A stretch of 64,000 nucleotides of DNA from contig CALVPY010000004.1 of NCBI GenBank assembly GCA_944354535.1, positions 18,825 to 82,824 on the forward strand. The letters are read 5' to 3'. The translations under genes and the position numbers were made by a program. Below the pieces are notes generated by a model that was not told where the DNA came from, ran no database searches, and saw nothing but the letters and a program-made list of their open reading frames with translations. Source of the DNA: an uncultured Clostridia bacterium (GTDB taxonomy: Bacteria > Bacillota > Clostridia > Christensenellales > Borkfalkiaceae). Of this stretch, positions 60,579-64,000 are shown in pieces; position 1 is the first letter of the stretch, and every line of letters starts with the position of its first letter.

Positions 60579-60652
60579 GGGGGGAAATCGTCTGCCCCGA
60601 GGCCTCGCCGTCCTCTGCCGAAAATTGCGGGCAAAAATTTTTTGTAAAACGG

Positions 60653-60681
60653 TTGCCAAATCGCCGCCGATGGTCTATAAT
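60653..60681 (+). promoter_or_regulatory. promoter of the corA leader
   Basis: TTGCCA (60653-60658), 17 bases, TATAAT (60676-60681). Transcription would start near 60688, about 240 bases before corA. A hairpin GCATGGGG/CCCCGTGC (60692-60699, 60703-60710) lies at the 5' end of the leader. The preceding 60579-60652 shows no gene. Confidence 0.85.
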
Positions 60682-60734
60682 AAGGATGATGGCATGGGGA
60701 AGCCCCGTGCTGCAGTCTGAAAGGAGAGCAAAAA

Positions 60735-60815
60735 ATGGACGACCCAAATAACCGATGCGTTATGACAACAGGTCACACCTCTGTGCGTAAAGTCCGCAGG
60801 AAGCTTTCTATGTGA
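60735..60815 (+). CDS. 26-codon leader peptide upstream of corA
   Basis: A short ORF with a good ribosome binding site (AAAGGAGAG, ~9 bases before ATG 60735). The peptide is MDDPNNRCVMTTGHTSVRKV followed by six more residues (RRKLSM). It lies between the leader promoter and the terminator in front of corA. Codons 16-18 (TCT GTG CGT, 60780-60788) are an exact copy of the right arm of that terminator, so their occupancy by a ribosome should decide which hairpin forms. The Asp-Asp-Pro start resembles the acidic/proline starts that destabilise ribosomes at low Mg2+, as known for MgtL. Its role as a peptide is probably only regulatory. Confidence 0.65.
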   Translation: MDDPNNRCVMTTGHTSVRKVRRKLSM

Positions 60816-60859
60816 GCGTTTTTTCGCCCGCATCCATTTGCATTTCCAAGACGCACAGA
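60780..60859 (+). promoter_or_regulatory. candidate antiterminator pairing in the corA leader
   Basis: TCTGTGCGT (60780-60788) inside the leader ORF can pair over nine bases with ACGCACAGA (60851-60859), the left arm of the terminator. The two structures exclude each other. A small local hairpin (TGCG 60784-60787 with CGCA 60795-60798) may compete. Confidence 0.65.
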
Positions 60860-60880
60860 TGGTTTTTCTGTGCGTTTTTT
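60851..60880 (+). terminator. intrinsic terminator/attenuator before corA
   Basis: ACGCACAGA (60851-60859) pairs with TCTGTGCGT (60867-60875) around TGGTTTT, followed by a run of six T (60875-60880). No gene ends here except the leader ORF, so it is an attenuator. A GNRA-capped hairpin (TTCGGG-GAGA-CCCGAA, 60890-60905) follows before the corA start. Confidence 0.8.
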
Positions 60881-60929
60881 GCTGCCTTCTTCGGGGAGAC
60901 CCGAAATCTAACGCAAGGCGGAAATGCTT

Positions 60930-61916
60930 ATGATCAATTACTTCAAGACTGTTCAAGGCCGTATGGAGCGCCTCTCCGCGTACGAGAAGGCGTGCTGGAT
61001 CGACATGGTCAACCCTTCCGACGACGAGGTCGAAGACATCGCAGCCCTCACGGGCATCGACGAAACGCTCTTAAAGGCCGCCCTCGATGAAGAGGAGTCC
61101 GCCCGTCTCGAGCGCGACGATAACGTCATCATGTGCCTCATGGATACCCCCGTCATCACCGATACCGACGAGGGCGACATCTACGAGACCATCCCTCTTT
61201 CCGTGATCTCCAACAAGGAGTGCCTCGTCACGGTGTGCCTGCGCGGCAATCCCGTGCTCGGCGGGTTCGTTTCCAACCGCGTCAGCGCCGATACGACGAA
61301 GCCCACTTCCTTCCTCCTTTCCTTCATGATGGGGAACGCCAAAGTGTTCCTTTCCAACCTCAGGCAGATCGATAAAAAATCGCTGCGCGTTCAGGCGGAA
61401 CTGCACCGCTCCATGAAGAACAAGGAACTCATCCAGCTTCTGGCGCTCGAAAATTCCCTCGTCTATTTCTCGACGGCACTGAGCGCGACGTACAGTGTGT
61501 ACACCAAGGTGGGCAGGCTCCCTTCCATTGCCGAGAACGAGGAATATCAGGAACTGTTTGAAGATATCCTCATCGAGGCCAAGCAGGCTGCCGAAATGTG
61601 TAATATCTACCGCGACATTTTGTCGGGCACGATGGACGCCTACGCTTCCGTCATCTCCAACAACGTCAACAGCGTCATGAAGCTGCTCGCGGTCATCACC
61701 TTCGTCATCGCCGTGCCCACGCTCATCGCGAGCCTCTGGGGCATGAACGTCCCCGTTCCCTTCGAAGGGAATGTGTGGGGATTCTGGATCGTCATCGGCA
61801 TCGCCGTCGTCATCAGCATCGTCGCTGCCGTGTGGATCGTACACGCCACCAATTCCGTGCGCATCAAGACGCCGCGCCAGGTCAAACGCAAACGCCGCGG
61901 CGGAGGAGATCACTGA
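60930..61916 (+). CDS. corA: CorA-family Mg2+/divalent cation transporter
   Basis: A 328-residue channel subunit with a large cytoplasmic funnel domain (~residues 1-260) and two C-terminal membrane helices. The selectivity motif is GMN in SLWGMNVPVPF, followed by the second helix and a basic tail (VKRKRRGGG). It moves Mg2+ and perhaps Co2+ or Ni2+ into the cell. I chose ATG 60930 because AAGGCGG is 8 bases upstream; ATG 60924 is too close to it. The attenuator leader upstream suggests control by ribosome behaviour, possibly Mg2+ level. The stop overlaps the next start. Confidence 0.92.
   Translation: MINYFKTVQGRMERLSAYEKACWIDMVNPSDDEVEDIAALTGIDETLLKAALDEEESARLERDDNVIMCLMDTPVITDTDEGDIYETIPLSVISNKECLVTVCLRGNPVLGGFVSNRVSADTTKPTSFLLSFMMGNAKVFLSNLRQIDKKSLRVQAELHRSMKNKELIQLLALENSLVYFSTALSATYSVYTKVGRLPSIAENEEYQELFEDILIEAKQAAEMCNIYRDILSGTMDAYASVISNNVNSVMKLLAVITFVIAVPTLIASLWGMNVPVPFEGNVWGFWIVIGIAVVISIVAAVWIVHATNSVRIKTPRQVKRKRRGGGDH

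Positions 61917-62601: not shown

Positions 62602-64000
<1,399 letters not shown>

Follow-up and report, generated by a model that had tools for sequence, protein, structure and literature searches.

A putative translation-dependent transcription attenuator upstream of corA in an uncultured Clostridia bacterium, with a leader peptide as probable sensor of low Mg2+

The DNA under study, hereafter called the window, is a stretch of 64,000 nucleotides from a fragmented assembly (53 contigs), and the nearest named relatives of its source include Candidatus Gallimonas gallistercoris (CorA 97 percent). The region of interest precedes corA. A first-pass annotation had listed here a promoter, a 26-codon ORF with its Shine-Dalgarno (SD) sequence, an intrinsic terminator and corA, and this order was confirmed from the sequence and the ORF table. 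The features are as follows (window positions).

60653..60681, + strand: sigma-70-type promoter, TTGCCA-17-TATAAT (11 of 12 consensus bases, 17-nt spacer)
60691..60711, + strand: stable hairpin where the transcript is predicted to begin
60722..60726, + strand: Shine-Dalgarno sequence AGGAG of the leader ORF
60735..60815, + strand: leader ORF, 26 codons, MDDPNNRCVMTTGHTSVRKVRRKLSM (from the ORF table and conservation in relatives)
60738..60758, + strand: putative sensor segment, conserved (codons 2-8, D D P N N R C; the rare codons CCA and CGA occur here)
60777..60788, + strand: predicted antiterminator arm ACCTCTGTGCGT within the leader ORF, codons 15-18 (from the repeat, pairing tests and folding)
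60848..60859, + strand: terminator left arm (core 60851-60859), common to the antiterminator
60867..60880, + strand: terminator right arm and T-run
60930..61916, + strand: corA, CorA-family Mg2+ transporter (PF01544, E 4.1e-53), with a longer alternative start at ATG 60924

By-eye alignment with relatives indicated that CorA probably starts at ATG 60930 rather than at 60924. Upstream of the leader, the GTTGCCAAA...TATAAT block is visible in the printed sequences of 16 relatives, and several relatives carry, at the place equivalent to the hairpin 60691..60711, a hairpin of other sequence (GACCGATATGGTC, by eye). The sequence TCTGTGCGT occurs twice within 60640-60930, at 60780-60788 (codons 16-18, in frame) and at 60867-60875 (terminator right arm), which is the exact in-frame repeat that the first-pass annotation had pointed out. 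The terminator left arm, ACGCACAGA, lies at 60851-60859, and the terminator stem extends to 60848-60859/60867-60878 with a predicted energy of -16.4 kcal/mol for the hairpin alone. The alternative pairing of the leader with this left arm had been proposed for codons 16-18; it is present and longer, as 60777-60788 can pair with 60851-60863 (a helix of 12 pairs interrupted by one bulge, -19.3 kcal/mol), with additional use of the terminator loop bases 60861-60863. A simple terminator scan of the window did not list the intrinsic terminator 60848-60880. Beside the terminator, GCATTTCC (60840-60847) is the exact complement of GGAAATGC (60920-60927, around the corA ribosome binding site), and this complementarity is kept in five near-identical sister loci.

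The conservation of the short ORF in relatives had been named beforehand as a check. A DNA search with the leader in 151 family genomes gave, beyond the window, only short matches, some upstream of relatives' corA and the rest chance-like; homologues were therefore found via CorA instead. CorA homologues were collected from 33 of the 151 sampled family genomes, together with 50 loci from named genomes. Upstream regions of at least 250 nt were examined for an SD-preceded ORF of 7-60 codons starting with M[DE]x0-3P. Among the 73 unique ones of corA, 59 carry this leader pattern; dinucleotide shuffles average 0.45 and never exceed 3, and the reverse strand has 0. In the family-like set (the window family with its close named relatives, n=55), 53 loci have a short SD-preceded ORF starting with M[D/E] when proline is not required, and 51 of these 53 have P at codon 3-6, so that the check was passed. 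The exceptions are two loci without P (L017 and L028) and two without an ORF by this rule (L027 and L031), of which L031 has MDDPRQNTTK but no recognised SD.

The peptide start Met-Asp-Asp-Pro, already read in the first-pass annotation, is found in the window and in the five nearest sister loci. Leaders of close relatives start with MDDPNNRC or MDAAPNNRC, and those of other family members with MDAVPDNRC, MDANPSF or MDSSPSF. Before corA of more distant Clostridia, the starts MEADPFSSN, MEGDPAGNGN, MDTDPLSSN and MDPDPYSRN were observed, and some leaders there begin with MDADP, MDCDP or MEGDP; the acidic-Pro start thus recurs there as M[DE]x[DE]P. A class-wide set of 115 corA upstream regions was also inspected, one of which was dropped as too short, while six had entered through the pattern itself. 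The leader pattern was found in 25 of the remaining 114 (one doubtful, with a 6-residue ORF), or in 19 of 108 without the six pattern-found loci. Several further upstream regions of this set show a variant start, e.g. MSADPYPN or MNPDPCGKR, and most of the 114 have no visible leader of this kind. Taken as a pattern in these sequences, the arrangement of promoter, ORF, putative arm and terminator is far beyond chance, as it recurs in relatives with species-specific sequence.

The second check named beforehand concerned the duplicated arm. A terminator-like hairpin, in some cases weak, lies downstream in 63 of 90 leader-bearing loci, which are not all independent. The pairing between leader and left arm was better than in shuffles of the same sequence (mononucleotide, 200 each) at p<=0.05 in 32 and at p<=0.01 in 19 of these 63 loci. 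In 46 family loci (three near-duplicates dropped), leaders paired with their own terminators at -15.7 kcal/mol and with terminators swapped between species at -12.1 kcal/mol, and none of 20,000 permutations was as good; a thinned set of 35 loci likewise gave 0/20,000. The signal peaks at leader nt 31-62, the segments 31-52 and 41-62 each giving 0/5000. A weak trend was seen for nt 1-22 (152/5000), nt 21-42 (159/5000) and the 40 nt upstream (368/5000), and none for nt 1-30, 11-32, 51-72 and 61-82 in the segment permutation test with the left arm. The duplication of the arm is consequently conserved in relatives.

The loop bases were considered separately. Six bases adjoining the scanned stem gave 0/5000 over all loci together, and 3 and 61 when the genus-like set and the remaining loci, respectively, were taken apart, but this result was dropped as independent support, since some of these bases pair in the longer terminator stem. 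For the strictly unpaired loop bases alone, the covariation was significant neither by energy (1085 and 3674/20,000) nor by longest run (5168 and 1778/20,000). When only the unpaired loop bases were swapped and the left arm was kept, the pairing weakened from -15.8 to -15.0 kcal/mol (2/20,000). Because of this weakening, the predicted antiterminator has some support that is independent of the terminator stem, most of the signal being located in the shared arm. Two features expected of a translation-dependent attenuator are found in these sequences: a short ORF with its SD, placed after the promoter and before the intrinsic terminator, and a mutually exclusive antiterminator which involves the ORF and is conserved by covariation. 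Two further pairings were considered and dropped, namely that of the leader ribosome binding site with the spacer before the terminator, which does not look conserved in sister sequences, and a local hairpin of codons 11-18 hiding the arm after ribosome release, which by eye is not kept in all sister species.

In the 36 loci with a pairing at p<=0.1, the distance from the ATG to the start of the arm has a median of 41.5 nt and an SD of 6.6, whereas the distances from arm to stop (SD 15.0) and from arm to left arm (SD 14.4) are more variable. This near-fixed distance suggests that the switch is measured from the leader start, in keeping with loss or holding of the ribosome within codons 2-9.

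The folding of the emerging transcript was then predicted with a ribosome at different positions. For a transcript ending at 60866, the antiterminator probability is 0.95 without ribosome and 0.83-0.98 with the P site at codon 1, 4, 5, 7 or 9; it falls to 0.000 with the ribosome at codons 12-22 and is 0.91 at codon 26, where the arm is left free. With the earlier proposal that a ribosome which covers codons 16-18 stops transcription, this prediction agrees in part: a ribosome at codons 12-22 is predicted to abolish the antiterminator, but one at the end of the leader would leave the arm free here. In several relatives, unlike in the window genome, the leader stop lies inside or before the arm. 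For an end at 60872, the antiterminator probability is 0.34 without ribosome, 0.97-0.98 with the ribosome at codons 1-5 and 0.01-0.08 at codons 7-9. Once the end reaches 60880, the terminator prevails throughout (0.995-0.997), its margin without ribosome being 4.6 kcal/mol. Since the full-length RNA favours the terminator by this amount, antitermination must be kinetic and would need kinetic trapping; equilibrium folding alone does not predict it.

The first-pass annotation had placed the sensor in the Met-Asp-Asp-Pro start, on the model that acidic residues with proline destabilise the translating ribosome at low Mg2+. An acidic residue and Pro within the first five codons, as in MgtL, are found in the window (MDDP) and in distant leaders (MDADP, MEGDP, MDCDP), and the recurrence of M[DE]x[DE]P in distant Clostridia agrees with this model. 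However, most close relatives keep D2 and P5 without a second acidic residue. Among 25 genus-like leaders whose fifth codon encodes P, the residue before it is Ala in 20, Gly in 2, Ser in 2 and Ile in 1, so that D2 is the sole acidic residue. Moreover, codons 5-9 form a second conserved segment, with near-invariant rare CCA and CGA codons, that lies outside the earlier model. Pro is encoded by CCA in all 25 of these genus-like leaders, whereas none of the 298 Pro codons counted in 30 corA genes from the same set is CCA; in the family leaders CGA accounts for 42 of 46 Arg codons near Pro and AGT for 27 of 36 Ser codons. The corresponding values for corA in the same sets are 0.9-2.9 percent for CGA, 0-0.4 percent for CCA and 4-5 percent for AGT; in 40 ORFs of the window, CCA reaches 10 percent and CGA 6 percent. 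The near-invariant rare codons and the missing second acidic residue are not explained by plain destabilisation. We read these codons as a slow-codon or arrest element, which would be added to the acidic motif or, in this family, partly replace it. The duller alternative is selection against RNA structure near the start, since the avoidance of structure can likewise favour AT-ending codons there.

An SD-preceded MxDP pattern was searched in 391 class genomes. It occurred at 63 places in 58 genomes, all of which were read, and 25 of them have an ORF of 5-60 codons. Eleven of these 25 short ORFs, several from sister species, precede a Mg2+ transporter gene (corA in nine cases, mgtE in two). Matches of this generic pattern to long proteins were set aside; ten of them are MEGDP-starting proteins of one kind, which we take to be NuoF-like. 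Before mgtE, which is unrelated to corA, some distant Clostridia carry leaders starting with MDSGPLP, MDPEPLS or MDSDPLP, and 18 of 30 mgtE loci have a leader by the rule given above, eight of them with MDSGPLP. At the same loci, a leader was present in 86 of 158 corA/mgtE ORFs and in 7 of 572 other ORFs, or, with the stricter M[DE]x[DE]P, in 28 of 158 and 3 of 572, it being understood that both sets include some loci brought in by the pattern itself. The transporters downstream are CorA (PF01544) and, in relatives, MgtE (PF01769/PF03448).

An M-box (Rfam), on the strand of the transporter and upstream of it, was detected in 11 of 50 corA loci (10 genomes) and in 12 of 30 mgtE loci scanned. 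In several loci the M-box shortly precedes the leader, and one corA locus (L206) has an M-box without a leader. The other corA loci concerned are L183, L115/L188 (one genome), L185, L189, L190, L199 and L131-L133, and the mgtE loci are L288, L297-L299, L302, L303, L305, L307, L309-L311 and L313. In many of these the M-box is followed by an MDxxP leader ORF, as seen by eye in L305 and L309; none was seen in L303 and L313. Such transcripts apparently bear two Mg2+ sensors in series. Because the leader type is attached to corA and mgtE and occurs beside M-box riboswitches, Mg2+ is likely the signal of the switch, on what is circumstantial evidence.

In the window's own family, mgtE mostly lacks the leader: of 29 loci, 28 of which belong to the family, one has it (start sites uncertain), and the idea that the leader is a general feature of Mg2+ genes in this family was rejected on this ground. 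The window genome carries corA but gave no match for mgtE. Of the sampled genomes of its genus, the 14 that lack a corA match each yielded one for mgtE; the mgtE of these 14 can be extended at the N-terminus by 104-120 open, in-frame codons and shows no such leader. In six mgtE loci (L284, L285, L298, L309, L310 and L311), the SD/ATG region of the leader looks complementary to the leader 3' end, and in some of them a CTCC...GGAGG hairpin may hide the mgtE SD (both by eye). In this arrangement, the same sensor might act on translation, as another kind of output.

Taken together, these comparisons make it quite probable that a translation-dependent transcription attenuator controls corA, with the leader peptide as sensor and low cytoplasmic Mg2+ as its likely signal. 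Translation-dependent attenuation as such is very likely and well supported by the sequence comparisons, and ribosome drop-off at Asp/Pro, by analogy with MgtL, is plausible. In the proposed mechanism, the first ribosome would be lost or held at about codons 2-9, i.e. at the acidic-Pro start and the following PNNRC with its rare codons, and leader nt 43-54 would stay free. The free arm would capture the terminator left arm as this leaves RNA polymerase, and corA would be transcribed. If the ribosome instead moves on, it would cover the leader arm, the intrinsic terminator would form and transcription would stop. Low cytoplasmic Mg2+, felt via the translating ribosome, would be the likely trigger. 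What the sequences show is the anatomy, the conserved peptide start, the species-specific co-variation of arm and terminator, the near-fixed distance from ATG to arm and the link with Mg2+ transporters; that the switch responds to Mg2+, that the ribosome drops off or pauses, and that the steps are suitably timed, we infer.

Several other explanations have to be weighed against this attenuator. That a constitutive upstream ORF and a terminator merely lower corA expression, the repeated arm having arisen by chance, can practically be discarded: a 9-nt repeat is indeed weak evidence in one genome, but the co-variation is species-specific (0/20,000 permutations) and the other leader segments give a weak signal at most, so that the permutation and segment tests already contradict this reading. 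A classical amino-acid attenuator that reads charged tRNA (e.g. Arg, Pro or Cys) would obey an identical ribosome-position logic, and conserved Pro and Arg codons are present; it is nevertheless very unlikely, as no codon is repeated in series in the leader, clades differ in the residues that follow Pro, and the downstream genes encode Mg2+ transporters rather than biosynthesis or amino-acid uptake. Slightly less probable still is a Mg2+ riboswitch or other RNA aptamer in the leader, with an incidental ORF. M-boxes are frequent at Mg2+ transporters of Clostridia and some relatives have one upstream of the leader, but in the Rfam scan of the window only 23S rRNA reached threshold, with nothing in the leader and no M-box (RF00380) at the gathering threshold. 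Besides, what is conserved is an ORF with an SD in front: its amino acids are retained, although in the wider set P, D, N and C are encoded by varying codons. The 23S rRNA gene (62602-64000) runs off the end of the window and is accompanied by no 16S rRNA gene at threshold in the window, so that the rRNA genes may be unlinked here.

A pause of the ribosome at codons 5-9 (P-x-x-R), in place of its drop-off, is quite possible, although we hold to it only tentatively. Slow CCA, CGA and AGT codons or a nascent-chain arrest would be responsible, and the signal would be either Mg2+ or general translation stress. The near-invariance of CGA and AGT in the family leaders and their rarity in corA of the same sets argue for such a pause, as does the position of the arm, which begins, at a near-fixed distance from the ATG, shortly past the leading edge that the size of the ribosome footprint gives for a ribosome at codon 8-9. 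On the other hand, M-D-x-D-P is retained in many distant leaders without CGA (MDADPGEK, MDCDPDSN), so the element held in common would seem to be the N-terminal motif. In addition, at end 60872 the predicted antiterminator is protected longer by a ribosome at codons 1-5 than by one at codons 7-9, and the AT-ending codons may simply reflect the avoidance of structure.

The attenuator proposed here may be compared with known leaders. MgtL, the mgtA leader, turns its gene on at low Mg2+ through EPDP-driven ribosome dissociation, full translation leaving it off (PMC11282234); in Salmonella it acts on Rho-dependent termination, and none is noted as detected for mgtA in E. coli (PMC11552253). The window leader resembles MgtL of Salmonella and E. 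coli as a short upstream ORF with an acidic-Pro start and a Mg2+ transporter downstream, but the output is Rho-dependent in Salmonella, and an intrinsic terminator with a putative leader-encoded antiterminator arm before corA in the window. No sequence homology is claimed beyond the start motif. Translation of the CorL uORF lowers corA expression, with Mg2+ acting through the leader; CorL of E. coli has a UUG start, fewer Pro/acidic residues, Rho-dependent termination and a different RNA structure (PMC11552253). CorL (Salmonella, E. coli), like the window ORF, precedes corA; a gammaproteobacterial corA motif is also described (PMC6429828). In Salmonella MgtQ, the ribosome is destabilised by the codons for Asp2 and Glu5, which increases mgtB expression, and a single Pro stands at codon 4 (PMC8092293). 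MgtQ is an ORF of the translation-aborting type and, like the window ORF, lies before a Mg2+ transporter gene; according to the same source, it differs by acting on mgtB translation and not on a terminator, and its Pro4 codon works by base pairing. The M-box (ykoK) also controls Mg2+ transporters and, in M. tuberculosis, a uORF (PMC12810186), whereas in the window the leader itself would carry the switch. We rate the window leader as a variant of the MgtL/CorL kind rather than a member by homology, with an intrinsic terminator as output.

In a broader perspective, we lean towards a widespread Clostridia class of ribosome-sensed Mg2+ leader peptides (core M-D-x-[D/x]-P), attached to the unrelated importers CorA and MgtE. 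Its outputs would be several, an intrinsic terminator in the window's family and other platforms elsewhere, in places behind an M-box in series, and the class would be analogous to, and possibly independent of, enterobacterial MgtL. No corA or mgtE leader peptide in Clostridia was among the matches listed in the literature search, a weak indication as subscription papers are thinly covered. In the literature found, Mg2+ sensing by an acidic-Pro nascent chain is an enterobacterial story. A conserved Clostridia counterpart on CorA and MgtE, beside the M-box, would, if true, suggest that the ribosome itself is a recurrent bacterial gauge of Mg2+. It would also offer a compact, intrinsic-terminator version of this sensing with a natural series of arm variants for testing, and would allow one to ask why two Mg2+ sensors would be used on one transcript.
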